From a virus, in IMG/VR virus record IMGVR_UViG_3300020455_000008, positions 1-64,000 of that record: 64,000 bases of DNA; one strand, written 5' to 3'. Under the pieces are notes generated by a model. It ran no database searches and had not been told where the DNA came from. It saw nothing but the letters and a program-made list of their open reading frames with translations. This document shows, in pieces, positions 2,180 through 52,801 of this stretch. Numbering within the stretch: the first letter of the stretch is position 1; every line of letters begins with the position of its first letter. The translations under genes and the position numbers were made by a program.

Positions 2180-3668
2180 TTATGAAGACTATATAGAGAG
2201 CAATCCAAACTTTGAGGTAAAATGGGGCTTCAATACAGGAGATGGCTTAGAGCTGTTAGGATTAGATGGATTAGTAGACGCTACGTTAGATGTGATAAAT
2301 CCTTTTCTTACGGGTGTTAATACCTTTATAGAGTTATTAGATATAATAGTAGACTTATTAGGAACAGTAGCAGGGTTTTTGTTTGACGTATTTTTCGCAG
2401 TAACCTTAGCCATAAGAGAAGCCTTAGAGTCTGTTATAAACCTTTTTACGGGTTTATCTCTCAACTGCATTTTACACTTCCCTCAAACTACTAAAAGCCG
2501 AAGAAATCCCGATGAGATCATGTACGATCTTGGTATGGCGTACCTAGATCCGACAGATCCAAAAAGACCTATAACGGTTCAAGAGACTTTTGGTGTGGCG
2601 TTGGTTGCTTTATGGAGTTTGCCTAACCTAGATAGGTTAATGTTACAGTTTAATCGGATAAACAAGCTATTTAGTGGTGTGTTGGAAACTAACATACCGT
2701 TAGATACTCGATTCAGCGCTTTAGAATCAAGGTATCAAGATTTAATTTCTCCGAAAGAACATCCTATAGATTCGGATTCTGATACCCTATACTTTAGCTA
2801 TAAAGCTCACGATAACTTTATAGGAGCTTATGACGAGTATAAGGTGGTTGTGGCAAACAAAGAGATATTAACAGATAATCCTAAATGTTTTATTGCCAAA
2901 AGAGATGAACAAATAGAAAAGTACTATGTAGTGCTTGGCCCCATAACTCCAAACAAGAGTAACCTTGATGAAGAGTTATTTAATTTATCAGTGCTAGTTA
3001 ATAATGGGGCTTATACCGCACAGAGGTTTATTCCAAATGCTATGACAGACTCCGTTTTGAGCCATCTTACTTACTTAAACCCTAGTTTAAGTGGGCAAGC
3101 TCCCAACTTTTCTTTCGCACTTCAACTAACGCAACTATCTTTTATACAAACGACTGTTAATACTTTGGCGGGGTGGGCTTTAACTGTTGAAAAGGGTAGG
3201 TCTTATGCGGATAGGTACAGAGCAATACTTGAGGTGGCTCAGAGAAGATTAAATAGAATAGCTGACCAAACACAGCAGCTTGTCAATGCAATCTCTGCTC
3301 TAGCGGCATTTCTCTCCTTTGGTAGTGGGGCAAGCGTGGTGCTGTGTAGTGGCACTGGTAAGGCTCAAGATTTTGCTAATGCATTAATCAACTCACCCTT
3401 ACACCCTAACTACCCAAGAGGTGATTTATCGGATATTAACCACAATGTGTCCAAACAGTCTTCAGATGTTACCCGAGATATTGAGCAAGCCGCAAAACCT
3501 TTATTGTATAGCGGAGGGGCATTATTACACTTTGGAGTTTCTGACACAGGAACGGAGAGGATAGAAGCGCTCAATAAGCTGTTACGTGTAATGTTTAAAG
3601 AATTATCTGCTGCTGAGTTAAGGGATAATACGTTTGAGCCTATTGGTAGCCGTTTTCAAGATCTATAA
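2136..3668 (+). CDS. Baseplate-region structural protein, unknown family
   Basis: A 510-aa protein whose ATG is preceded by AAGG at a 7-nt distance. Residues about 40-110 are strikingly hydrophobic and helical (GTVAGFLFDVFFAVTLAI and neighbours), unusual for a virion protein. The middle is mixed alpha/beta. Around residues 360-420 there is a long amphipathic helix (RAILEVAQRRLNRIADQTQQ) followed by an Ala/Gly-rich hydrophobic stretch. It sits between the spike and the gp25-like gene, so a baseplate or tail-tube-associated role is likely. The hydrophobic N-terminal third could contact the host inner membrane during ejection; this is speculation. Confidence 0.6.
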   Translation: MSIKSQKKGLLREANYEDYIESNPNFEVKWGFNTGDGLELLGLDGLVDATLDVINPFLTGVNTFIELLDIIVDLLGTVAGFLFDVFFAVTLAIREALESVINLFTGLSLNCILHFPQTTKSRRNPDEIMYDLGMAYLDPTDPKRPITVQETFGVALVALWSLPNLDRLMLQFNRINKLFSGVLETNIPLDTRFSALESRYQDLISPKEHPIDSDSDTLYFSYKAHDNFIGAYDEYKVVVANKEILTDNPKCFIAKRDEQIEKYYVVLGPITPNKSNLDEELFNLSVLVNNGAYTAQRFIPNAMTDSVLSHLTYLNPSLSGQAPNFSFALQLTQLSFIQTTVNTLAGWALTVEKGRSYADRYRAILEVAQRRLNRIADQTQQLVNAISALAAFLSFGSGASVVLCSGTGKAQDFANALINSPLHPNYPRGDLSDINHNVSKQSSDVTRDIEQAAKPLLYSGGALLHFGVSDTGTERIEALNKLLRVMFKELSAAELRDNTFEPIGSRFQDL

Positions 3669-3682
3669 GATAGGAGAGTCAT

Positions 3683-4048
3683 ATGCCAAAGTTAAAGGGT
3701 TTATCCTTCCCCATAAAATTCTCTCCTAGAGGTTCATTAACCACTTCTGAGGGTGTTGATAAGATCAAAGAGAATATTAAGGCCATTGCCTTAACATCTT
3801 TGGGAGAAAGATTAATGAGTCCAAATGTGGGCACTATGGGTTATACTCACTTATTTAGAAATATGGGTGAGGGTGAAATCGGATTACTAAAACACCACCT
3901 ACGTCTAGGTATAGAAGCGGGTGAAAACAGGGTGACTATTTTAGATATAAATATCTCTCGCCCAGAGCAAGATGGGCAACTATTGGTAAGCCTATCCTTC
4001 CAAATTATAACAAGCACAGAATTTGATAATCTATCATTCTATATTTAG
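3683..4048 (+). CDS. Baseplate wedge protein, gp25/GpW family
   Basis: A 121-aa protein with the gp25/GPW lysozyme-like wedge signature: a start like FPIKFSPRG, the central SLGERLMSPNVGTMGYTHLF (usual form: GER.m.pefGt....lfe) and a C-terminal beta strand pair. It joins the baseplate wedge to the sheath initiator region. The length fits the family. ATG follows a GGAGAG ribosome-binding site. The gp6/J-like gene lies 10 nt downstream, the usual order in myoviruses (W then J then I). Confidence 0.85.
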   Translation: MPKLKGLSFPIKFSPRGSLTTSEGVDKIKENIKAIALTSLGERLMSPNVGTMGYTHLFRNMGEGEIGLLKHHLRLGIEAGENRVTILDINISRPEQDGQLLVSLSFQIITSTEFDNLSFYI

Positions 4049-37428: not shown

Positions 37429-38811
37429 ATGAAAATTTATCTGAGTGGAGTAGTGAGGAAAGATCGCTTAGGTCTTTTGATTGAAGCTGGTATTCAAAAC
37501 GTGGTTATTGACTACTCAGTAGCTAAGGGCTTCTCAGTTCAAGAGTTTGAGCAGATTGCCAATCACTTTGATAGCATAATGTTAGAATATGACCTCTCCA
37601 GTCAGTGGTCTAAGATCAAATATCTGTGGACCAGCTCAGACTTACGTCATGCAAAAGATATTGAAAAGCATGGTTCACTAGAAGAAGCACAAACTTATCA
37701 CATACAGAGAATCACTAAACGTGTAGCAGATTACTTTATCTTTGCTCAGTCTATTCAGCACGTAGTGGACGTGGTATGGACACCCCATTTACCTATTGAG
37801 TATGAGTTTGAACCTAACGAAAGTATTGAACAGCAAAAAATAGGGAGACTAAAAAAAGTTTTCAAAAACTTTTCTGACTATATTTACAACTGTTCTCACA
37901 TAGGTATTCCCAATGATGTTGGGTTACAAGACGTTAAAGACGAAATAAAGCCCCATATTGCTTCTCTAAAGTCGTTTGGGATAAAAACACATAGGTGGGG
38001 TAGGGCTGACAAAGAAACAGCTCTCACAGGCCTATTTTGGAGTTCGTCCTCTTCTAACTGGGTAAGTGGGTCAAAACATGGGGTCACTTTTGAGTACGTA
38101 GGAAATCTAAAGCTAACTACGTATCATGGGTCTAAGGGTTCGGGTAAACAGATTAGAACTAAGCTCAAATCAAAATGTGAAACAATTGGACTTGACCACA
38201 ATCTCTTAATGAACGATGACCGTAAGACTGTAAATTTATGGAATCTACATCAATGGAAGCTTTTGTCTAAAGATGTAGATTTTGTTAGTGGGTACTGGTC
38301 GACGAGGGAGCGGGATGTGAAAGATAAACAGCTTAGTGTTATACAAAATAACTCAAATTCTCAGCTTGCAACTCAAGACCAAATTGGCTCATACTTACGG
38401 AATTGTAATTCATGCTACCTAAGCGCAACTTGCCCAGTATACGAGTCGGATTCGACTTGTAAGATAACGTCTACACCGAAGGTTGAGACACCTAATGACG
38501 TGCAGGCTCTACTCAATCAAGTGATTCAGATCCAAGGGGAGAGAGTTCTTTTTGCTTCTATGTCAGAGCGAATTCAGAACGCTGGAATCAACCCCGAAGT
38601 CTCCAAGGAAATGGAGACACTTACAAAACTAATGAAAGACGCTAAAGAGATCACCTCCGTTGGTGGGGGTGACGAAGTTACGATTCGAGCTAAGGGGTCG
38701 GGTGTCATATCGAGATTGTTTGGCGGATATGGGCGCAGTGGTGGTGGTTCAAAACCATCTACATCGGAGACTATAATAGATGTCTCCCCAATGGAGTCAA
38801 AGGATGACTAG
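37429..38811 (+). CDS. TIM-barrel-like protein, possibly TGT/DpdA-related (tentative)
   Basis: A 460-aa protein. The start MKIYLSGVVRKDRLGLLIEA and the segment GIKTHRWGRADKETAL followed by LFWSSSSSNWVSGSKHG recall the TGT-like family (usual giKvHgfG...l..yp.~SvDSssW..G), which inserts deazaguanines into DNA or tRNA. Residues about 315-345 add four Cys (NCNSCYLSATC, then C) as a likely zinc site. A Gly-rich basic tail follows. No other preQ0-pathway gene is visible in this window, so the DNA-modification idea is a hypothesis. A dispersed-motif copy lies inside (37850-37873). Confidence 0.35.
   Translation: MKIYLSGVVRKDRLGLLIEAGIQNVVIDYSVAKGFSVQEFEQIANHFDSIMLEYDLSSQWSKIKYLWTSSDLRHAKDIEKHGSLEEAQTYHIQRITKRVADYFIFAQSIQHVVDVVWTPHLPIEYEFEPNESIEQQKIGRLKKVFKNFSDYIYNCSHIGIPNDVGLQDVKDEIKPHIASLKSFGIKTHRWGRADKETALTGLFWSSSSSNWVSGSKHGVTFEYVGNLKLTTYHGSKGSGKQIRTKLKSKCETIGLDHNLLMNDDRKTVNLWNLHQWKLLSKDVDFVSGYWSTRERDVKDKQLSVIQNNSNSQLATQDQIGSYLRNCNSCYLSATCPVYESDSTCKITSTPKVETPNDVQALLNQVIQIQGERVLFASMSERIQNAGINPEVSKEMETLTKLMKDAKEITSVGGGDEVTIRAKGSGVISRLFGGYGRSGGGSKPSTSETIIDVSPMESKDD
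37850..37873 (-). repeat. Dispersed 24-bp motif, intragenic copy K
   Basis: Core AGTTTTCAAAAACTTT within the coding sequence of the 37429 gene. It keeps the core but not the ATAG end; it may be a chance AT-rich match. Confidence 0.4.
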
Positions 38812-41788
38812 AAAATACTTCAGAAACGATCTAGGAGAACTTGTTTATCTACGCTCATATGCACGTTGGCTTGAGTCTGAGCATAGACGAGAGACTTGGA
38901 ATGAAACCGTCAGTCGTGTAATGAGTTTCTTGTTTAAGGATTCACCCGTCCAGCAAGAAGAGATAGACCTCATCGAAGAAATGATTTTAGAGCAGCAAGT
39001 TATGCCTTCTATGCGTTCATTGTGGGCGAGTGGAGACTTTGCTTCTGTTGATAATACTGCAATCTATAACTGCTCATTCCTACCCATCGATAACCTAAGA
39101 GCCTTCTGTGAGTTAATATACATCCTAATGCAAGGTACAGGCGTAGGTTTTTCGGTAGAGGGTAAGTTTGTTAATAAGCTACCTACTGTAGCCCAAATAG
39201 ATGATACGCAGGTCGCTTCCCATCAAGTGGGGGATAGTGCTACTGGTTGGGCAGACGCAGTTTTTTTCGTAGTTACTCATGCGTGGAAGGGCTACGGCTC
39301 TATTGAGCTAGACTACTCACTTGTTAGGCCAAGAGGTAGTCGCTTAGTTACCAAGGGTGGAAGAGCAAGTGGCCCAGAGCCATTGAAAGCTGCCATCGAG
39401 TTCTTGATTGAGACTATCTACTCTGCTGAGGGAAGACAGCTCACAACCCTAGAAGTTTACGATATGTGTTGCTCTTTAGCAGAAGTAGTAGTCGTAGGGG
39501 GTGTTAGACGTTCAGCTATGATCTCGTTTAGCGATCCCGATGATGAGTCAATGCGTCACGCCAAAGATTGGAAACGAGGTAACTTCCCACTCAAACGATA
39601 TATGAGTAATAACAGTGCGTACTTCCAAGAAAGGCCAAGCAAAGAGGTCTTCGATAGGGAGTGGACACAACTCGCAGAGTCGGGGAGTGGTGAACGAGGT
39701 CTATCTATAGACAACTGGCATAGATATGCCCCAAGACCACAGGGTGGCACTCGATCTAACCCCTGCGTGACAGGCGATACTAGAGTTATGACAGAGGATG
39801 GCTTTATTCAGATAAAAGACTTCCTTAATGACCCTAAGACTTTAGTGATCGATTCTCGATTTGGTACTGAGAAGCAGGGTTATACTAGTGATAAAGGCGC
39901 TTTCATCACGGGTGAAAAGCAAGTGTTTAAATTAACTACAAAGCAAGGTTACGAAGTTAAGCTAACGGCAGATCACCGAGTTATGACCTCTAAGGGTTGG
40001 GTAGAAGCAAAAGATCTTGAGCTAGGTGATAAAATTCACATATGTAATAATGGCGGGATGTTTGGGTCTGAGGGCAATGAGGAGATAGGTGCTATTGCGG
40101 GGTGGTATGCAGGTGATGGAACTATTGCTGATGGAAGCCCAAGGTTATACTTCTACCACGAAGATAGAACTCTTACTTCTTACTTCAAGAGCTGCATAGA
40201 GAGCGTTGTGGGGCACGAGGTTAATATCTCTGAATATCTTCCTACCAAGCGAGAGCACATAGAATCGGCTTCTTTGAGAGACTACTTGCCTACTGATGAC
40301 CGAACTAAAGTTCCAGAGATAATTTGGAGAGGAACAGAAAAATGCCAAAAGTCTTATCTGTCGGCTCTGTTCTCAGCAGATGGCTGTGTGCTAGGCGACT
40401 TGAAAAAGGGCGCTTCCATTCGACTGCACTCAACTAAAATTGGTCATCTGAAGGACGTGCAGCAAATATTATTAAACTTTAATGTTTATTCAAAGATATA
40501 CACAGGTCGAATGAAAGAGGGCTTTAGGATAATGCCCGATGGTAAGGGGGGGTTGAAGAACTATTACTGTAAGGAATCAGCAGAGCTGATGATCTCTTGT
40601 AAAAGTTTGGTCACATTTTCACAAAGGATTGGGTTTATGCGACAGGATAAGCAAGAAGCCCTTAACTCGATTATTGACTCTTACAAGAGAAGACCTAATG
40701 CAGATAAGTTTGTCGCAGACTTTACGGGGCTTGAGCCTTTGGGGGTAGAGACTGTGTATGATTTGACTGAAGAGACTACACATTCCTTTATTGCAAATGG
40801 ATTAGTCGTCCATAACTGCCATGAAATTGGTTTAAGATTTAGAGAATCAAATGACCCTTGGTCGGGCGAAGGTGGGGGCGGTCAGTTCTGCAATCTCAGT
40901 GCTGTAGTTGTTCGCCCTGAAGACACATTAGATACACTAAAGCTAAAGGTGAGACTTGCTACGATCATTGGTTGTACTCAAGCTCAATTTACTAATTTTC
41001 CATATTTGCGCCCCGCCTGGAGAGAGCTATGTGAAGAGGATAGATTAATTGGTGTGGACCTAACTGGTCAATGTGACCATCCAACTCTGTTAGATAATGT
41101 AGAAAACCTATCCATATTAAACGATGTGGCAATCTCTACAGCTAGTGAACTTTCTGAAATGTTGGGTATTAATATGCCAGCAGCAGTAACTTGCGGTAAA
41201 CCAAGTGGCAACACCTCCCAAATGGTGGATTGTGCAAGTGGTTTCCATCCTCGTTACAGTGATTATTATTTTAGGCACGTTCGAGTTAGTGCAGATGATC
41301 CACTCTCAGCATTATTGAAGTCTGAAGGTGTACCTATGTTTCCTGAAGTAGGTCAAGAGAATCTTGATGAAAAAGATGTTAAAACATGGGTAGCACGTTT
41401 CCCCGTTAAGTCACCTAGTGGTTCGATGACTCGTAACGATGAGAGTTCATTTGATCAAATGGAGCGTTATCTGACAATAATGAAGGGTTGGTGTAGGGAT
41501 CGAGGTCACAATCAATCAGCTACCATTTATGTAAAAGAGGACGACTGGGGTAAGGTGGGTGAATGGGTTTGGGATAACTTTGACGACATCGTTGGGCTAT
41601 CATTCCTACCTTACGATGGCGGTAACTATAAATTAGCGCCCTACGAAGAGATCTCTCAAGATGAATATGAGGACTGCATATTAGACTTCCCAAATATTGA
41701 TTTCCAAAAGCTTTCTGAATTTGAAGATTTTGATCAAGGACAAGGTTCTACTGAGTTAGCTTGCACAGGTGGAACGTGTGAACTATAG
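38804..41788 (+). CDS. nrdJ: Adenosylcobalamin-dependent (class II) ribonucleotide reductase with intein
   Basis: Start chosen at ATG 38804 (GGAG 7 nt upstream, 8-nt overlap with the previous gene); ATG 38780 is an alternative. After removing the intein the enzyme is about 643 aa, a monomeric B12-dependent RTPR type: ATIIGCTQAQFTNFPYLRPA, AVTCGKPSGNTSQMVDCASG and RHVRVSADDP are family hallmarks. The exteins rejoin as RSNPC-HEI, the active-site loop. The C-terminus ACTGGTC supplies the redox Cys pair. It makes dNTPs from rNTPs for phage replication and depends on host cobalamin. Confidence 0.9.
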   Translation: MTRKYFRNDLGELVYLRSYARWLESEHRRETWNETVSRVMSFLFKDSPVQQEEIDLIEEMILEQQVMPSMRSLWASGDFASVDNTAIYNCSFLPIDNLRAFCELIYILMQGTGVGFSVEGKFVNKLPTVAQIDDTQVASHQVGDSATGWADAVFFVVTHAWKGYGSIELDYSLVRPRGSRLVTKGGRASGPEPLKAAIEFLIETIYSAEGRQLTTLEVYDMCCSLAEVVVVGGVRRSAMISFSDPDDESMRHAKDWKRGNFPLKRYMSNNSAYFQERPSKEVFDREWTQLAESGSGERGLSIDNWHRYAPRPQGGTRSNPCVTGDTRVMTEDGFIQIKDFLNDPKTLVIDSRFGTEKQGYTSDKGAFITGEKQVFKLTTKQGYEVKLTADHRVMTSKGWVEAKDLELGDKIHICNNGGMFGSEGNEEIGAIAGWYAGDGTIADGSPRLYFYHEDRTLTSYFKSCIESVVGHEVNISEYLPTKREHIESASLRDYLPTDDRTKVPEIIWRGTEKCQKSYLSALFSADGCVLGDLKKGASIRLHSTKIGHLKDVQQILLNFNVYSKIYTGRMKEGFRIMPDGKGGLKNYYCKESAELMISCKSLVTFSQRIGFMRQDKQEALNSIIDSYKRRPNADKFVADFTGLEPLGVETVYDLTEETTHSFIANGLVVHNCHEIGLRFRESNDPWSGEGGGGQFCNLSAVVVRPEDTLDTLKLKVRLATIIGCTQAQFTNFPYLRPAWRELCEEDRLIGVDLTGQCDHPTLLDNVENLSILNDVAISTASELSEMLGINMPAAVTCGKPSGNTSQMVDCASGFHPRYSDYYFRHVRVSADDPLSALLKSEGVPMFPEVGQENLDEKDVKTWVARFPVKSPSGSMTRNDESSFDQMERYLTIMKGWCRDRGHNQSATIYVKEDDWGKVGEWVWDNFDDIVGLSFLPYDGGNYKLAPYEEISQDEYEDCILDFPNIDFQKLSEFEDFDQGQGSTELACTGGTCEL
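39764..40816 (+). mobile_element. LAGLIDADG intein inside ribonucleotide reductase
   Basis: A 351-aa in-frame intein. Block A is CVTGDTRVMTEDGF, starting with the nucleophilic Cys. Block B is YEVKLTADHRVMTSKGW. Two LAGLIDADG motifs are IAGWYAGDGTI and YLSALFSADGCV. Block F/G is TVYDLTEETTHSFIANGLVV ending in His-Asn, followed by the +1 Cys. It is inserted directly before the Cys of the NPCxEI active-site loop, so the enzyme is inactive until splicing. The endonuclease motifs keep their Asp residues, so homing activity is possible. Confidence 0.92.
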
Positions 41789-45472: not shown

Positions 45473-45844
45473 ATGAATAACAAACAACTGACACCCAACT
45501 TGATTCCTTTATTACAGAAAAACTTAGGCGAAAACTTAGGAGGAGTAGGGTTTAGCCGTAAACGTAAATATAACCCTTTGGGTACGTATTCTAACGAGTC
45601 TAAATCATCTAACGAGTCTCTTATGGGTAGGCACTTCTCGTTCATAATAATAGCGGTAGACGCAGACAATAACTGTGTTTGGCTAGAAGGCCGAAGCAGT
45701 GAAAGTTCAAATACTCACAATAACCGTTATCATGGCAGTGTTTGCGTAGAGCTAGATGGTTGTATGTCGAGAAGAGATATAGCTCAAAGAGGTGCAGATC
45801 AATCCCCCGACTTTTACAAAGATGAAGTTGCTGGGTCATATTGA
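45473..45844 (+). CDS. Unknown protein, small-gene cluster
   Basis: A 123-aa protein with a beta-rich centre (HFSFIIIAVDADNNCVWLEG) flanked by Ser/Asn/Lys-rich disordered parts. Spacing to the preceding gene (44 nt) contains an A-rich leader but no clear hairpin. No family recognised. Confidence 0.5.
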   Translation: MNNKQLTPNLIPLLQKNLGENLGGVGFSRKRKYNPLGTYSNESKSSNESLMGRHFSFIIIAVDADNNCVWLEGRSSESSNTHNNRYHGSVCVELDGCMSRRDIAQRGADQSPDFYKDEVAGSY

Positions 45845-45866
45845 AAGTGTTGGTAAGGTAATGACA

Positions 45867-46409
45867 ATGTCGGTTAGCAAATATGATTCAAATGGTCTTT
45901 GCTGGCAAAGAGGTAGAGCTTTTGAAGATAATCTGAAGGATCTATTTATCAAAAAGGGCTACAAGGTTAGACCATCCACCCAGGAAGAGGACTATAAGCT
46001 TCATGCTGACTTTTGGGCATACTCAGACACATGGGGTAGGTGGTTAAGCGTGGACGCAAAAGCAATGAAGCGCATACAGAGAAATGGTGAGTTACAAGAT
46101 GAGTTCACATATGTAGAGTGGAAAAATACTGCGGGTTATGCGGGTTGGTTATTGTGCGGTGCCGATGTAGTTGCATTTGAGCGCAGACGCAGCATAGTTC
46201 TTGCAGTCAGACATAGGCTAAAGGATTGGTGCTCTGAGAGAGTAGATCGCAGTAAAACAGTAGACTCTCCAGCTCAATCATTATACTGTTCATACTCAAG
46301 AACTGGTAGGGAAGATGAGATCAGTATGATACGCATATCTGATATACCTATCGCCTTGACGACCATATGGATTACAGATGACAGAGAAGCCCCAAACGAT
46401 ATACCTTGA
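45867..46409 (+). CDS. PD-(D/E)XK nuclease-like protein
   Basis: Start set at ATG 45867 (AAGG 8 nt upstream); ATG 45861 and GTG 45792 are alternatives. The 180-aa protein contains GRAFEDNLKDLFIKKGYKVR, LHADFWAY and WLSVDAKAMKRI, which give the E...D...DxK pattern of a restriction-type nuclease or resolvase core, followed by FTYVEWKN. Located directly upstream of a cytosine methyltransferase, so it could be tied to modification, but it may equally be a resolvase. Assignment rests on pattern only. Confidence 0.45.
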   Translation: MSVSKYDSNGLCWQRGRAFEDNLKDLFIKKGYKVRPSTQEEDYKLHADFWAYSDTWGRWLSVDAKAMKRIQRNGELQDEFTYVEWKNTAGYAGWLLCGADVVAFERRRSIVLAVRHRLKDWCSERVDRSKTVDSPAQSLYCSYSRTGREDEISMIRISDIPIALTTIWITDDREAPNDIP

Positions 46410-46686
46410 ACCAAAAGAGACATACGATCAATGTATCCTCAAAATTGAGGATGGTATTGTTTATTACTGCGTAGACTCAATACTAAACATATTGACTGAC
46501 GATTTTGAGTCGTGGGTCAAAGACAGCCCAAGTTTCTCAGAACAAGATGAGAGTTACGAATATCAAGCTATAACACTAGCGTTAGAATGGTTTGATCACA
46601 ATATGCACAGTGCATATCTTGGTAGGTATTCACCTAGATATGTATTTAACACAGAAGACATGGAAAATAATGAATGTGGATCATAG
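46378..46686 (+). CDS. Small acidic protein overlapping methyltransferase start
   Basis: A 102-aa acidic protein (ILTDDFESWVKDSPSFSEQD) overlapping its upstream neighbour by 32 nt and the methyltransferase start by 17 nt. Likely co-translated. Function unknown. Confidence 0.5.
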   Translation: MTEKPQTIYLEPKETYDQCILKIEDGIVYYCVDSILNILTDDFESWVKDSPSFSEQDESYEYQAITLALEWFDHNMHSAYLGRYSPRYVFNTEDMENNECGS

Positions 46687-48034
46687 CGAAAAACTTACCC
46701 ATATATCCCTCTGCACAGGCTACGGGGGGATTGATCTTGGACTCAAACGAGCTATCGGATCAGTTAGCACAGTCTGTTATGTGGAGATCGAAGCCTTCGT
46801 CATCGAAAACTTGGTTGCGAAGATTGAAGCGGAAATCATCGACCCCGCGCCTATTTTCACAAACCTTAAAACCTTCCCTTGGGAACACTTTAGTGGACGA
46901 GTGGACATCCTCAGTGGAGGGTTTCCTTGTCAACCATTTAGTGCCGCAGGAAGAAGGGGCGGAGATGAAGATCCCCGACACCTGTGGCCATACATTGTCG
47001 ATGGAATCAAACGGCTTGGAAGACCTCCCATTGTTTTCTTCGAGAACGTGGAGGGAATCCTCAGCTCAAAGCTCAAGGGTGACCAATGGTCAGACCCCGA
47101 AGGAACACCCGTTTTGCTTCATGTCCATCGAGAGCTGGAAAGATTGGGTTACAGAGCAACGTCAAGCGTATTCTCAGCGGCTGAAGTTGGCGCAACACAC
47201 AGAAGAAAAAGGGTCTTTATTCTCGGTGTCAGAAATGACCTCTCAGACAAAGGTAGGGAATGGATCACTCAAAGCATGGGCAACACCAAGGGCGAGCAAA
47301 ATAGGTTCAGAGAACTTGGAGAAGTGGAAGAAGAGAGCAGAGAAAGGTCAAGTCAGCACAATGCCACTCGGTTTACAAGTGGAGGTTTCAGAACAGCATA
47401 CCCCGCACCAAGGGGAGCAGAGCAATACCCCTATGAGCCACCAAGAACTCAATTGGGCAACTCCCAACACGATGGATCACCTATCCCCGAAAAGTGCGGA
47501 AACCCTAATGAGACAGGCCACAACTGTCAGAAAGGGCCGCAAATATCCATCGAATCTGAGAGAGCAGGTCGATCCGAAGTCTATGCAAATATACAAGGAA
47601 ACGAACTGGGCAACCCCCACGTCAAGGGATTGGAAGGGGGCGTACTCAGAGGAGGGTCTGATCTTAAATCCAAAATGGGTTGCACTATTACCCGATCAAG
47701 TAAAAGAGAATCAGAAAATGTGGACAACCCCGATCAGTCGAGATTGTTACGAGATAGAAATGAAACAACAAATACCGAATCGGAAAGACGGGAAGACTCG
47801 CTTAGACACGATGCCGAGACAGATTCATCATCAAGAGGGGTACAAGGGGAAATTGAATCCGAGGTGGGTGGAAATGTTGATGGGTTTACCCATTGGATGG
47901 ACTATGCCGAGTTGTACGAATCCTGTGATAGTAGAATTGACGAGCTTAGGATGTTGGGAAACGGAGTTGTACCTGACACCGCCAAAAGAGCCTTCACAGT
48001 TTTGTGGCAAATCTTACGTAGAGGAAGATATTAA
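46670..48034 (+). CDS. dcm: C5 DNA cytosine methyltransferase
   Basis: A 454-aa enzyme from ATG 46670. Motif I SLCTGYGGIDLGL binds SAM; motif IV GGFPCQPFSAAG holds the catalytic Cys; motif VI is FFENVEG; motif VIII is EVGATHRRKRVFILG; motif X is MLGNGVVPDTAKRA. The region between VIII and X (residues about 205-415) is hydrophilic and low-complexity where a target-recognition domain is expected. This is the stretch most overlapped by the second frame. Probably protects phage DNA from host restriction. No cognate nuclease is certain, though 45867 is a candidate. Confidence 0.88.
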   Translation: MNVDHSEKLTHISLCTGYGGIDLGLKRAIGSVSTVCYVEIEAFVIENLVAKIEAEIIDPAPIFTNLKTFPWEHFSGRVDILSGGFPCQPFSAAGRRGGDEDPRHLWPYIVDGIKRLGRPPIVFFENVEGILSSKLKGDQWSDPEGTPVLLHVHRELERLGYRATSSVFSAAEVGATHRRKRVFILGVRNDLSDKGREWITQSMGNTKGEQNRFRELGEVEEESRERSSQHNATRFTSGGFRTAYPAPRGAEQYPYEPPRTQLGNSQHDGSPIPEKCGNPNETGHNCQKGPQISIESERAGRSEVYANIQGNELGNPHVKGLEGGVLRGGSDLKSKMGCTITRSSKRESENVDNPDQSRLLRDRNETTNTESERREDSLRHDAETDSSSRGVQGEIESEVGGNVDGFTHWMDYAELYESCDSRIDELRMLGNGVVPDTAKRAFTVLWQILRRGRY

Positions 48035-48056
48035 TGATAGTAATACTAATCAGTAG
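46674..48056 (+). CDS. Long frame (460 codons) overlapping dcm in +1 frame
   Basis: ATG lies 4 nt after the dcm start (ATGAATG) and the frame runs 22 nt past the dcm stop with no interruption. The product has repeated Trp-Ala-Thr-Pro units: KAWATPRASKIG, LNWATPNTMDH, TNWATPTSRDWKG and MWTTPISRD. Two LNP.WV units (LNPKWVALL, LNPRWVEMLMGLPIGWT) also occur. I recall these units (WPTPTA.DWKG and LNP.FVEWLMGFP.GWT) from other phage proteins in dcm loci. The N-terminal 150 residues look like a frameshadow of the conserved MTase core. Translation is unproven. Confidence 0.45.
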   Translation: MWIIAKNLPIYPSAQATGGLILDSNELSDQLAQSVMWRSKPSSSKTWLRRLKRKSSTPRLFSQTLKPSLGNTLVDEWTSSVEGFLVNHLVPQEEGAEMKIPDTCGHTLSMESNGLEDLPLFSSRTWRESSAQSSRVTNGQTPKEHPFCFMSIESWKDWVTEQRQAYSQRLKLAQHTEEKGSLFSVSEMTSQTKVGNGSLKAWATPRASKIGSENLEKWKKRAEKGQVSTMPLGLQVEVSEQHTPHQGEQSNTPMSHQELNWATPNTMDHLSPKSAETLMRQATTVRKGRKYPSNLREQVDPKSMQIYKETNWATPTSRDWKGAYSEEGLILNPKWVALLPDQVKENQKMWTTPISRDCYEIEMKQQIPNRKDGKTRLDTMPRQIHHQEGYKGKLNPRWVEMLMGLPIGWTMPSCTNPVIVELTSLGCWETELYLTPPKEPSQFCGKSYVEEDINDSNTNQ

Positions 48057-48111: not shown

Positions 48112-48449
48112 TCATCTTCATCTAAGTCCATATCAAAATCAACTTCATCTTGTAGCTCAATAATACCAACGTGCTCAAATTTATTGAGTTCTACCTCTTC
48201 GTAGATAATAACTTGCTTTAACTCTAACTCTTCTGCAATCTCTTCCATGACAGCTACACACCGATCTCTGTCATTAGAAATCATACACAGACCTTTTGCT
48301 ACGGGCTGGTAGAACAGATACAAATTAGCCCACATTGCTAACGGAACTATCAAAAACGCAGTGATCAGTGACGTGAATAAAATGCAGATGATCACATAAA
48401 TGACAAATAGAGCTTTTAGTAGATCGTCTTTATCAATATTAATCTCCAT
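48108..48449 (-). CDS. Two-TM membrane protein with acidic tail
   Basis: A 113-aa leftward gene. Hydrophobic segments cover residues about 12-47 (ALFVIYVIICILFTSLITAF and the next stretch), then a cytoplasmic helix (VMEEIAEELELKQVIIYEE) and a very acidic end (FDMDLDEDD). It overlaps the kinase-like gene start region by 11 nt. Function unknown; its placement beside a cyclase operon is notable. Confidence 0.6.
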   Translation of the reverse strand: MEINIDKDDLLKALFVIYVIICILFTSLITAFLIVPLAMWANLYLFYQPVAKGLCMISNDRDRCVAVMEEIAEELELKQVIIYEEVELNKFEHVGIIELQDEVDFDMDLDEDD

Positions 48450-49026
48450 CTATTACCTCCCGAATTGCTTTGAGAACTATAGGTTCAGCGTACGTAAACC
48501 ATTGGTCAAAATCATTTACTGCGGGTGCAATCTCTACTACCTTGACCCCCATTGCTTGCATACGCTCAAACCAGTCAATCAGTGCCTTAGACACTTCCAT
48601 CAATCCCTCTTCACCAATGATTTTACATACTGAATCTTCGGCTTCTAAGTTGTTTTGAGCTGCTGCTGGGATAGAATGGAAATAGACAATGAGATCGGGC
48701 AGCGGGTTAAGTTCCTCCATTCCAAGCGTCATGTCTTTGAACAAGTCAATCTCAGCCTGGGCAAGCTCATCTGTCTTAGCCAATGCTCTAGCGTAATCAT
48801 AACAAGCCCATACACTACGCTCATGTAGTGTAACTCCATTTGACTCTCTCCAGTTCTCCATATTCTGAGTAAGGGCGTAAGTCCAACTTTTGATTCCATT
48901 GAACGGTGGGGCGGCTACACCCACTTTTACAGTATCAAACTTAAAGTCACTCTCTGTAATAAACTTGTTAGTAAATTTTGGCATATTACTGCCCCATATC
49001 CCCTCAAACACAATACGCTTTGTCAT
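48439..49026 (-). CDS. Deoxynucleoside-kinase-like protein lacking the P-loop lysine
   Basis: A 195-aa leftward gene with deoxynucleoside-kinase layout: KRIVFEGIWGSNMPKF where EGNIGSGKST is usual, then LHERSVWACYDYARAL (the ERS box) and PLPDLIVYFHSIPA (usual PDLiiYL). The Walker A Lys and Ser/Thr are gone, and no Arg-rich LID is evident. It is therefore probably not an active kinase, and may be a regulator or decoy. A second protein of the same type is encoded at 52211-52801. RBS is AAGGAC. Confidence 0.6.
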   Translation of the reverse strand: MTKRIVFEGIWGSNMPKFTNKFITESDFKFDTVKVGVAAPPFNGIKSWTYALTQNMENWRESNGVTLHERSVWACYDYARALAKTDELAQAEIDLFKDMTLGMEELNPLPDLIVYFHSIPAAAQNNLEAEDSVCKIIGEEGLMEVSKALIDWFERMQAMGVKVVEIAPAVNDFDQWFTYAEPIVLKAIREVIDGD

Positions 49027-49204: not shown

Positions 49205-49459
49205 ATGTATGATCTATCACATCTATCAACAGATAAATATGTAGTTGACAAACTTAGAGATTTTTCTGAAGAACTGGATCTTGATGAAACAATATGCGCT
49301 ATCTGCGGACTAAGCCCCGACAAATGCCCATGTTACGTACATCCACCTCACTCATGCACGTATGAAGACTGTGACTGTGCTTGTGATGACCCTGAGATAA
49401 CCTGTTCATGCTGCATAGTAGAACTATGTGATTGTGAGAAGAAAAATGGAGTTCAATAA
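49205..49459 (+). CDS. Cysteine-rich small protein
   Basis: Start at ATG 49205 behind GGAGGTG. The 84-aa protein has 13 Cys, mostly in pairs: TICAICGLSPDKCPC, then DCDCACDD and CSCC, LCDC. This suggests two or more zinc sites or a metallothionein-like fold. The C-terminal codons overlap the cyclase start by 14 nt, placing it in the same operon. No family recognised; it could be a regulatory partner of the cyclase. Confidence 0.65.
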   Translation: MYDLSHLSTDKYVVDKLRDFSEELDLDETICAICGLSPDKCPCYVHPPHSCTYEDCDCACDDPEITCSCCIVELCDCEKKNGVQ

Positions 49460-50294
49460 TAGAATTCTAGCAATTGTACTCTTAGATATTATCGGCAGCA
49501 CTGCGTTTGTAGAACGGTATGGCGCTAGAAAAGCAGCAGAATGGTTACAGTATCACGATAGACTCACTCGATCACTACTATATAAATTTAATGGTCGAGA
49601 GATAGATAGATCGGATGGATTCCTTCTTAGTTTTGATCGTCCTATAGACGCTGTTAATTTCTGCTTGCACTACCAGCAATCAATTCCCAAAAAAACTAAG
49701 TTGCAGACTCGTATTGGTATGCATTGGGGAAAAATTGTAGAAGTTGTTCAAGATGAAAAATTTACTAATGTTGGAGCTAAGAGCATTGAACTTGAAGGTC
49801 TAGCTAAAAATATTACTGCTCGTACTATGTCTTTGTGTGGAGCGGGTCAAGTTTTGTTGACTAAAGAAGCTATGATAGCTGTGCAGAGTAGAACTAATCG
49901 CTTTACTCCATCAGGTACACGTTATGCGTGTGTAGGTCTCTATCGCTTCAAGGGCGTAAAGAAACCACAACAGATCTATGCCGTGGGTGCAACGATTGAC
50001 TCTCTGCAACCCCCACCCTCTTCAGACAAAGTAAAGCGACTAGGTGGAGCTAAAAAGATCCGCAGCCGAATGAGAGATAGACAGTTAAAAGATCATATCT
50101 CTTGGGTATTTTACAGATTAGCCTTTATTTGTGCTATTTATTTAGGTCTATTCTTTTGGCCATTTATATCTACTGAAAGCGCAAGGATTACATGGGGTAT
50201 AGATCACATTTTTTGGTGGATAGATGATGTCAAGAATTTCTTTAGCATTGTCATCGAAGCATACAAAACAGTTAGAAGGGATCTAGGATTTTGA
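49446..50294 (+). CDS. Class III nucleotidyl cyclase with C-terminal TM anchor
   Basis: A 282-aa protein. The cyclase domain spans residues 5-180. It has metal Asp14 in LLDIIGSTAF, Asp57 in RSDGFLLSF, TRIGMHWGKI (88-97), and the catalytic pair Asn122/Arg126 in KNITARTMSL. CGAGQVLL and YRFKGVKKPQQIYAVG (166-181) complete the family pattern. The purine-selecting Lys expected just before Asp57 is absent. Residues about 221-241 form one TM helix. In bacteria, cyclase plus TM protein is the layout of Pycsar antiphage systems. Here it is phage-borne, and the next gene is a membrane protein. Confidence 0.8.
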   Translation: MEFNNRILAIVLLDIIGSTAFVERYGARKAAEWLQYHDRLTRSLLYKFNGREIDRSDGFLLSFDRPIDAVNFCLHYQQSIPKKTKLQTRIGMHWGKIVEVVQDEKFTNVGAKSIELEGLAKNITARTMSLCGAGQVLLTKEAMIAVQSRTNRFTPSGTRYACVGLYRFKGVKKPQQIYAVGATIDSLQPPPSSDKVKRLGGAKKIRSRMRDRQLKDHISWVFYRLAFICAIYLGLFFWPFISTESARITWGIDHIFWWIDDVKNFFSIVIEAYKTVRRDLGF

Positions 50295-50740: not shown

Positions 50741-50763
50741 AAGTTTTTGAAAACTATTTATAG
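50740..50763 (+). repeat. Dispersed 24-bp motif, copy F
   Basis: AAAGTTTTTGAAAACT then ATTTATAG. It starts at the last base of one stop codon and contains the TTA that is the stop of the convergent methyltransferase, so it makes up the whole junction. Confidence 0.8.
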
Positions 50764-52179
50764 TATACCTTTGAACAGTGGTAGGTCTTCTAAGTCTTTC
50801 TTCTTGACTTCGACTTCCTCAGCTTGACCACCCCAGTAAGCTATGCGCTTCTTAGCAATCTCAACGTACTCCTCGTTAAGCTCAATGCCAATCGCATTCA
50901 CTCCTTCTACAGCGCAAGCGCACAGGGTAGACCCACTGCCTAAAAATGGCTCTAAAACAGTGCCATCCTTTGGGCAGACTAAACGCAGGCAGTACTTCAT
51001 TAAATCAAGTGGCTTGACCGTTGGGTGGTGATTAGCCCTCTTACCCGATGGCGTTCTAGTTTTCTCTAACGACCCGTCTATACGACCATTTAATGTACCA
51101 AAGTTTTTCTTCTCTAAATCTTGTAGTCCAGCTTCTTTCTCTTTCTTACTTGCTTTCGATGTATAGAAGAACCTACTTGCCCCACCCTTATCTCCGTACC
51201 CTTCTGAACCATAAGCCTTCCAGCCTACACCATCCTCGACTGAGGAGAGCTGCCCCTTGCCAGCTACTCCCCAAGCCCGACTCTTCTTCCCAGCTCTACC
51301 ACTTTTCTGAATACCGCTTTGTTGATCGACCGCAAGTGCAGCTTCCTCATCTAGTATAACATTGGCAGGGAAACGACCTTTGGGTTTGTGCATTTGAATT
51401 TTACTACCGACTTTTGCTATGTGACCTGTCCACCCACTTTCCTTATAAGAAGCAGTTTTCTGTTCATGCATTTGGGTGAAGTCGATATTTTCACTGTTAT
51501 CATATTGCACTCTAGTATCATCGATATTGATTGCACCTACGCCCCACGTCATTACATTGTCTGCAATAGATCCTTCGGGTGGTTTTCTAATCATTATGAT
51601 GGGTTCATACGCTGGCTTGAGTGCAGTACCCCAACCCTCCCACTTCTCAGCTTCGGGGCATTTAGCTTGGTACTCTTCGACAGGATTTGACGTTAGTTTG
51701 TTTTTCTCTTCTACATCACTAGCTTGATACTGACTCGCAGTGGGGATTGCTCTACCCCTATTAGGGTGACCAAACTTCTTATCAATCGCTAATGATACGT
51801 TATGACTTTTTGGGAACCCACTGCCGTACAGGTACATCAAAGTATCCCTCACCTCGAACCCAGCTAAGCGCAAACTAATACTCATTAGGTCTTGGGTTCT
51901 TGAGGAAGCGAATACTAAACCATGCGCTCCAGGCTTTAGGACTCTGTATACTTCTTTCCACAAACTGGGAGGAGGCACCCAACTATCCCAAGACTTATTC
52001 ATAAACCCCTTACCCTTGGGTGTCCAAGACTCTCCACTTGTCCATGCTCTTAAGCAATCTTCTACATTCTTCGATGAGGTATTCCCCATACCGTAGGGCG
52101 GATCAGTGATTAAGCAGTCTAGTGAGTTGTCGTCTAATGTCTTAAGTATCTCTTCAGAGTCTCCATTTAGTATTTGCAT
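50758..52179 (-). CDS. N4/N6 DNA methyltransferase (DPPY type)
   Basis: A 473-aa leftward gene from ATG at 52179 (the frame is open to 52230). MQILNGDSEEILKTL and LITDPPYGMGN form the N-terminal catalytic motif IV. TVLEPFLGSGSTLCACAVEG and IGIELNEEYVEIAKKRI give the C-terminal SAM-binding motif I. The DPPY-before-FxGxG order is the beta class, which methylates adenine N6 or cytosine N4. The central 200 residues carry the specificity region. Typical of phage orphan methylases. It is read from a transcript that starts beyond 52801. Confidence 0.85.
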   Translation of the reverse strand: MQILNGDSEEILKTLDDNSLDCLITDPPYGMGNTSSKNVEDCLRAWTSGESWTPKGKGFMNKSWDSWVPPPSLWKEVYRVLKPGAHGLVFASSRTQDLMSISLRLAGFEVRDTLMYLYGSGFPKSHNVSLAIDKKFGHPNRGRAIPTASQYQASDVEEKNKLTSNPVEEYQAKCPEAEKWEGWGTALKPAYEPIIMIRKPPEGSIADNVMTWGVGAINIDDTRVQYDNSENIDFTQMHEQKTASYKESGWTGHIAKVGSKIQMHKPKGRFPANVILDEEAALAVDQQSGIQKSGRAGKKSRAWGVAGKGQLSSVEDGVGWKAYGSEGYGDKGGASRFFYTSKASKKEKEAGLQDLEKKNFGTLNGRIDGSLEKTRTPSGKRANHHPTVKPLDLMKYCLRLVCPKDGTVLEPFLGSGSTLCACAVEGVNAIGIELNEEYVEIAKKRIAYWGGQAEEVEVKKKDLEDLPLFKGIL

Positions 52180-52190
52180 TGTCTCTCTCA

Positions 52191-52214
52191 AAAGTTTTTG
52201 AAAACTATTTTTAG
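52191..52214 (+). repeat. Dispersed 24-bp motif, copy G
   Basis: AAAGTTTTTGAAAACT then ATTTTTAG. It includes the stop codon of the leftward gene 52211-52801 and ends 12 bp before the methyltransferase start codon. Confidence 0.8.
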
Positions 52215-52801
52215 GTGGTGGCCCGCACAAATGAGTAGATCTGCTCTAGTAGTTTCTCAGACCAATACTCTCTCTCAAGGCCCATGATTTTAGGGGATTG
52301 AACTCTAAGTACCTGAACGCCCTTAGACTCCATTAACCCTAGCCACGTTTCATACAATTCGTCAAGAGCCACAAACTGAGTATTCGATAAGGGTGAGTGA
52401 CTAGCCGCACACTCAAAATACACAATGAGCGTTGGGAGCTGTATATCATCTGACATAAGATTGTCATAAAACATCTTCAATCGCTGGTAGTCCTCATCAC
52501 TCATACCAAGTCTCTCTCTATACTCCCACAGCGCAAAGGTCATCGCTGACCATACAGATCTCTCATAGAATGTAATCGGCACATGAGATCCCCACTGCTC
52601 ACCTAAATGCCACTGAGAAAAAAGCGCAAGCATATAGCTCTCCCACTTCTCTATATCCCAATCTCCATCTAATACACTCTCCTCCTCTCCCCATATCAAA
52701 CGACTCACACCTAAGTTCTCCAGCTCCCACATAAATGCTCCCACTCCACTACCCACTATACCCTCAATCGAAATCCTAGAAAAAGCGCGCAAAGAATACA
52801 T
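52211..52801 (-). CDS. Second deoxynucleoside-kinase-like protein, degenerate P-loop
   Basis: A 196-aa leftward gene. RISIEGIVGSGVGAFMWELE stands where I.IEGNIGSGKSTll..L is usual, so the Lys is Val and the Ser/Thr is Gly. TFYERSVWSAMTFALWEYRE is the ERS box, shared almost word for word with the 48439 protein (ERSVWA/S). LPTLIVYFECAASHSP matches pdliVYl. The two are divergent paralogues flanking the cyclase and methylase genes. RBS is AGGGGG before ATG 52801. Its + strand is G-poor. Confidence 0.6.
   Translation of the reverse strand: MYSLRAFSRISIEGIVGSGVGAFMWELENLGVSRLIWGEEESVLDGDWDIEKWESYMLALFSQWHLGEQWGSHVPITFYERSVWSAMTFALWEYRERLGMSDEDYQRLKMFYDNLMSDDIQLPTLIVYFECAASHSPLSNTQFVALDELYETWLGLMESKGVQVLRVQSPKIMGLEREYWSEKLLEQIYSFVRATT

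Follow-up and report, generated by a model that had tools for sequence, protein, structure and literature searches.

Almost completely overlapping reading frames of a viral contig probably encode two subunits of one C5-cytosine DNA methyltransferase

We analysed a 64,000-nucleotide stretch of viral DNA (positions 1 to 64,000 of the IMG/VR record IMGVR_UViG_3300020455_000008; hereafter, the window), focusing on a locus at which the frame of a cytosine methyltransferase (dcm) gene is overlapped almost completely by a second long open reading frame (ORF). The dcm frame, which we refer to as f0 or alpha, spans 454 codons, and the second frame, f1 or beta, spans 460 (see Table 1); f1 lies in the +1 phase relative to f0, and the stretch shared by the two is approximately 1.4 kb long. 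A first-pass annotation, made from the letters alone, had reported two frames that start 4 nt apart and both remain open for more than 1.3 kb, and this proved correct. The third reading frame contains 32 stops over the locus. As a chance test we generated 5000 synonymous permutations, keeping the protein and codon set of one frame fixed. With f0 fixed, the permutations give 4-18 stops in f1 as compared to the one observed, and this sole stop, a TGA within ATGA, precedes f1's own ATG. When f1 is the fixed frame, they give 7-29 stops in f0 as compared to the five observed, none of which falls within the 452-codon run. For comparison, stops in the same phase number 6.6-10.4 per 100 codons across ten other long genes of the window, where no open run exceeds 77 codons.

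As judged by sequence searches, f0 is a C5-cytosine methyltransferase: it matches Pfam PF00145 (8.6e-34, residues 10-228 only), phrog_363 (1e-49) and M.HhaI (6e-10), and carries motifs I, IV (with the catalytic PCQ), VI (ENV) and VIII in the order that defines these enzymes, followed by motif X. In the usual monomeric methyltransferase the target-recognition domain (TRD) and motifs IX and X are found in the same chain as motifs I-VIII; f0 has neither a recognisable TRD nor motif IX, and only three of the relatives (L075, L212 and L213) have the complete chain. The first-pass annotation credited the dcm frame with all C5-methylase motifs; of these, I, IV, VI, VIII and X are in f0, while the putative motif IX is located in f1. 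The f1 protein, when used as a query, matched PHROG 1008 'DNA methyltransferase' (1.7e-12, residues 59-410) but no Pfam, NCBIfam or PADLOC family. Its four Trp-(A/T)-Thr-Pro and two LNP.WV units, which had been recognised from the start, are located as listed in Table 1. The second of the LNP.WV units opens the putative motif IX, which among f1 proteins follows the nearly invariant pattern LNPxWVExLMGxPxGWT. This LNPxWV block fits motif IX by its place, its pattern and its counterpart in single-chain relatives, rather than by a profile match; a search of the PDB with the motif alone found nothing. The C-terminal part of f0, at motif X, matches the C-terminal part of the phrog_1008 profile, and this division of the match between f1 and f0 was the first hint of one enzyme divided between the two frames.

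Table 1. Features of the overlapping gene pair, in coordinates of the window
Feature	Coordinates	Strand	Remarks
Shine-Dalgarno-like GGAAAA, common to both starts	46662..46667	+	spacing of 6 nt to the f1 ATG and of 8 nt to the f0 GTG; putative function
Start cluster ATGAATGTG	46670..46678	+	f0 ATG 46670, f1 ATG 46674, f0 GTG 46676
f0 (alpha), predicted C5-cytosine methyltransferase	46670..48034	+	carries motifs I-VIII and X; no recognisable TRD, no motif IX
f0 motif I (LCTGYGGIDLG)	46709..46741	+	located in sequence; alignment A2
f0 motif IV with catalytic PCQ (GGFPCQPFS)	46916..46942	+	invariant in alignment A2
f0 motif VI (ENV)	47033..47056	+	invariant in alignment A2
f0 motif VIII (HRRKRVF)	47198..47218	+	located in sequence
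f0 motif X (LGNGVVP)	47954..47974	+	101 nt after the start of f1 motif IX
f1 (beta), +1-frame protein	46674..48056	+	460 aa; W-x-T-P unit array and motif IX
f1 W-x-T-P unit 1	47277..47453	+	WATP at 47277
f1 W-x-T-P unit 2	47454..47606	+	WATPNTMDHL...NLREQVDP
f1 W-x-T-P unit 3	47607..47720	+	WATP at 47607; holds LNPKWV (47664)
f1 W-x-T-P unit 4	47721..47852	+	WTTP at 47721
f1 motif IX (LNPRWVEMLMGLPIGWT)	47853..47903	+	LNPRWV at 47853; nearly invariant in alignments A1 and A3

Both frames are kept open in relatives. Scanning IMG/VR with each of the two proteins yielded 47 contigs, nearly all of which keep both frames open, with the +1 phase seen in the window, over at least some 1 kb; the f1 homologues, detected in 38 viral contigs in the first scan, are mostly full length. 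An alignment-based scan detected related stretches both in IMG/VR (at least 466) and in bacterial genomes (99). We counted stops in 99 non-redundant full-overlap loci, having set aside four of 103 in which f0 ends before motif IX. From its start to motif IX, f1 contains no stops at all in these loci, as compared to 535.6 expected with the f0 protein and codons fixed, while the third frame contains 1661, close to the 1742 expected. The reverse count yields no stops in f0 against 1230.5 expected, although the four loci set aside mean that this is partly selected for. Loci in which f1 is broken while dcm is intact, named by the first-pass annotation as the case that would speak against a second protein, were searched for, and none was found in the full-overlap clade. 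At two loci, L011 and L046, a single indel shifts both frames together, and both loci were left out of the counts; the indels could be either assembly errors or mutants losing both proteins at once. Earlier stop counts in the C-terminal part were abandoned in favour of this landmark-based test, as they were partly true by construction (f0 is open there by definition).

To these counts we added an analysis of selection at the codon level, in which substitutions in independent locus pairs were classed by their effect in both frames (S, silent; N, altering; f0 first, f1 second), with homologous flanking genes serving as a control. In the part encoding motifs I-VIII, changes silent in f0 occur at 0.215 per site if they alter f1, as compared to 0.819 if they do not, and in the more divergent bin the respective values are 0.436 and 1.175. 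The resulting raw SN/SS ratios of 0.26-0.37, set against 0.81 (0.70-0.94) in the flanking control genes, amount to an approximately three-fold depletion of f0-silent changes that alter f1. We relied on SN/SS against controls because the naive f1 dNN/dNS was rejected as evidence: it is below 1 (0.62-0.75) in control genes that have no second gene. A pairwise BLOSUM shuffle test was rejected as well, since the third frame rose too. In the part between motifs VIII and IX it is f1 that is strongly constrained (dNN/dNS 0.26-0.32), whereas f0 is near neutral (dNN/dSN 0.90-0.94, with the by-product frame in control genes at 1.1-1.3). Given this opposite constraint in the two parts, f0 therefore leads for catalysis and f1 for the recognition part, with each frame kept open elsewhere. 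Computation thus establishes that both frames are kept open and that f1 is under selection at the protein level. The first-pass annotation had suspected as much, both in considering the second frame a real protein and in regarding the f0 region between motifs VIII and X as shaped by the other frame; it had overlooked that the second protein supplies a candidate target-recognition region and motif IX.

The distribution of motifs among relatives shows what f1 contributes: it carries elements that f0 lacks, and relatives with all of them in a single chain exist. Motif IX lies in the +1 phase relative to motifs I-VIII at 187 of the 191 loci where both could be placed and, in a second set, at 80 of 83 (both counts include some near-identical contigs). 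The two sets together amount to about 270 loci, from phages and from bacteria of many phyla; the first includes loci from Clostridia, Paenibacillus, Alicyclobacillus, Acinetobacter, Actinoplanes, Verrucomicrobia, Planctomycetota, Spirochaetia and Nitrospirae. Motif X is encoded by f0 at most loci, and by f1, with f0 ending early, at L009, L059, L060, L193, L214, L215, L220, L225 and more. The distance between f1 motif IX and f0 motif X in the window, 101 nt, is similar to the 37 residues that separate the two in L009, where both are in one frame. Single-chain methyltransferases from Pelosinus (L075) and from viruses (L212 and L213) have motifs I-VIII, W-x-T-P units, motif IX and motif X in one frame, with motif IX at the same place; in L213 (positions 2504-3727 of that locus) the units are located on both sides of motif IX. 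An AlphaFold model of L212, for which the alignment (A5) was built from f0 and f1 fragments of relatives, has a predicted template-modelling score (pTM) of 0.75, is confident in the regions of motifs IX and X, and aligns to M.HhaI along its entire length (E 3.4e-15). A search of the PDB with the A5 profile, which was degraded by gaps, was discarded. Taken together, the placement of motif IX, the shifts of motif X, the single-chain relatives and the L212 model make f1 best read as the missing half of f0.

The start region suggests how the two proteins could be produced together. In 77 of 103 non-redundant relatives the closest pair of starts is an f1 ATG followed 2 nt on by an f0 GTG (ATGTG), in 80 of the 103 a Shine-Dalgarno-like motif lies no more than 18 nt upstream of the f1 start, and 63 relatives have only one ATG, GTG or TTG candidate before motif I in the f0 frame. 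Because of this pairing and the spacing of GGAAAA in the window, the actual f0 start may be GTG 46676 rather than ATG 46670. As GGAAAA precedes both starts, a single ribosome-binding site appears to serve two frames. Total overlap characterises the clade that holds the window; across the wider family, f1 begins further downstream, in many cases 70-190 nt into f0. Three ORFs at 45473-46686 (+), none of which has a Pfam or PHROG match, precede the pair with head-to-tail overlaps; the last of them ends within the f0/f1 start region, and around 46670-46686 three frames are in use.

Because a candidate target-recognition region and motif IX both come from f1, the products of f0 and f1 are probably subunits of a single enzyme, and we consider it very probable that the locus encodes two subunits of a C5-cytosine DNA methyltransferase in overlapping frames. 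The alpha subunit would consist of motifs I-VIII as its catalytic domain, then a linker under almost no constraint, then motif X; the beta subunit of an N-terminal extension, four W-x-T-P units in the place of the TRD, and motif IX. With both starts within 7 nt behind one ribosome-binding site, the pair is probably made together. We infer that both frames are translated and that their products would form a heterodimer methylating the phage genome and protecting it from host restriction; protection of phage DNA is the usual role of phage orphan methyltransferases.

Several points weigh against the two-subunit reading. The relatives are mostly metagenomic contigs, although the isolate phages C75C1, ABMM1, S9-5 and Leyra, in which the arrangement is the same, and the bacterial genomes agree with them. 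AlphaFold prediction of f1 alone is uninformative (predicted local distance difference test, pLDDT, 51), and in the L212 model the W-x-T-P region, the putative recognition part, is of low confidence. Furthermore, the N-terminal 190 residues of f1 are only moderately constrained, with dNN/dNS of 0.45-0.57 as compared to 0.62-0.75 in ordinary genes. This last observation is what one would expect if only the C-terminal part of f1, with the units and motif IX, were functional, and the N-terminal 190 residues were a tolerated leader resulting from the use of f0's ribosome-binding site. Most bacterial and prophage relatives open f1 only inside f0, which makes its first part dispensable in the family at large; however, the full-length f1 N terminus is conserved in 103 loci and the SN/SS depletion is found in exactly that part, and we regard the leader explanation as unlikely, if worth keeping in mind.

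The other alternatives fare worse. The first-pass annotation had offered programmed ribosomal frameshifting, which would fuse f0 and f1 into one chain, as an alternative to a second protein, and the single-chain relatives do show the joined order of motifs I-VIII, units, IX and X as one protein. In the window, however, two shifts would be needed, from f0 to f1 for the TRD and motif IX and back to f0 for motif X, and in several relatives f1 runs beyond the end of f0. Moreover, in a frameshift gene only one of the frames has its own start, whereas f1 has a conserved ATG, mostly with a Shine-Dalgarno-like motif, and is open from there: frameshifting would require neither this start nor the ~190-codon 5' part, yet the latter is open in 99 of 99 loci and selected, which makes a fusion by frameshifting very improbable. 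We give just as little credence to f1 being an independent protein, such as an anti-restriction factor, nested in dcm by chance. While the lack of family matches to f1 would be compatible with this, f0 is without motif IX, motif X moves between the frames, the IX-to-X spacing resembles that of a one-frame relative, and the two halves occur joined in single chains. Finally, f1 could in principle be an accidental open frame resulting from f0 codon usage and composition: permutation of f0 leaves about 11 stops per 454 codons in that phase, which is below the usual. The complete absence of stops across the 99 loci, the SN/SS depletion against control genes, the strong constraint on f1 in the TRD part and the presence of motif IX in f1 only make this explanation practically untenable.

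If the locus indeed encodes two subunits, then the W-x-T-P units of f1 would be candidate readers of DNA targets, as suggested by their position between motifs VIII and IX and by the precedent of multispecific phage methyltransferases, whose modules are of a size close to the ~44 residues of a unit. Among 104 proteins there are 1-9 units per protein with a median length of 44 residues; unit types recur at different positions, and 15 f1 proteins have units downstream of motif IX, which in several of these proteins lie past the point where f0 ends. The second unit of the window occurs, without exception in the +1 frame, at 79 loci. At 40 of these, identity to the window is below 45% for the catalytic part but 60-66% for the best units; unit 2 thus acts like a module whose persistence or movement is not tied to the catalytic part. 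One could go further and propose, at slightly less than even chances, a double-coded modular system in which one ribosome-binding site and ATGTG provide matched catalytic and specificity subunits, with exchangeable units that each have their own target. A unit swap between phages would alter both frames at once, and the unconstrained f0 linker would tolerate it, so that total overlap and modular specificity would go together.

In DNA genomes it is rare for two conserved proteins to overlap by more than 1 kb, and here a nearly total overlap recurs in at least a hundred phage contigs. The frame arrangement itself recurs in hundreds of phage and bacterial sequences, in which the second protein is often unannotated. 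Both frames are annotated in Paenibacillus phage Leyra (gp61/gp62), ArV1 (ArV1_067a/b) and Catdawg (6/5), and only f0 in Acinetobacter phage ABMM1, Salmonella phage S9-5 and E. coli PT62 (NCBI annotation). By implication, many annotated phage and prophage dcm genes would be half an enzyme with the other half unannotated, and methylation predictions and expression tests using f0 alone would then fail. The array of units may also provide a way into a code by which unit types correspond to DNA targets.

Several other genes of the window deserve mention. A second DNA methyltransferase, of the N6/N4 type (PF01555, 7.5e-28) and with a large insert between its conserved parts, is encoded ~2.7 kb downstream on the opposite strand (50758-52230). 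Two deoxynucleoside-kinase-like proteins (PF01712) are encoded at 48439-49026 (-) and 52211-52801 (-), with only the second passing the curated cut-off. A possible phage nucleotidyl cyclase is encoded at 49428-50294 (+): the protein is hydrophobic over a stretch at its C terminus and weakly matches PF00211, the catalytic domain of adenylate/guanylate cyclases (E 5.8e-4, narrowly missing the curated cut-off). Upstream, 38780-41788 (+) encodes a class II (B12-dependent) ribonucleotide reductase-like protein with an intein that contains a LAGLIDADG endonuclease (PF14890, PF14528, PF17975).

We found no account of such an overlap in phages in the open-access literature, nor of the arrangement in a paper on Paenibacillus phages. 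Comparable to the window pair, whose f1 matches phrog_1008, are Leyra gp61-gp62 and Arthrobacter phage ArV1_067a/b, overlapping genes annotated as 'DNA methyltransferase', but there the overlap is partial or nested. In phage ShiLan, too, a second protein is encoded in another frame of a DNA methylase gene, through an out-of-frame HNH insertion (PMC11855218); that insertion is mobile and encodes an endonuclease, whereas the second frame in the window appears to be part of the methyltransferase itself. Multispecific phage C5-methyltransferases combine several target-recognition modules in one enzyme, according to the summary of Trautner et al. 1996 given in PMC12707154. The possible likeness to them lies in the array of units, as candidate modules, and in unit length, and they differ from the window in being a single chain in a single frame.

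The closest parallel is provided by M.EcoHK31I, an alpha/beta C5-methyltransferase that recognises YGGCCR, whose beta polypeptide is reportedly encoded within the alpha gene in a different frame. In M.AquI, the break falls between motif VIII and motif IX, and the second, small subunit contains variable-region sequence together with motifs IX and X, while in M.EcoHK31I motifs I-VIII and X are in the large polypeptide, to which the predicted TRD was also assigned, and only motif IX is in the small one (PMC3404938). The window departs from the M.AquI type in that motif X is in f0; the M.AquI layout is seen in relatives such as L009, L060, L062, L214 and L268, although f1 still overlaps part of the f0 motif I-VIII region. 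By described motif layout the window instead agrees with M.EcoHK31I, f0 corresponding to the large and f1 to the small polypeptide. It differs in that f1, at 460 aa, is much longer, being as long as f0 and overlapping it from the start codon, that f1 has the W-x-T-P array and with it the candidate TRD, which is thus not in the large subunit, and that no endonuclease was identified beside the pair. To judge from its sequence, the window pair probably belongs with the split C5-methyltransferases of the M.EcoHK31I type, while having total overlap, a longer second protein and an array of units.
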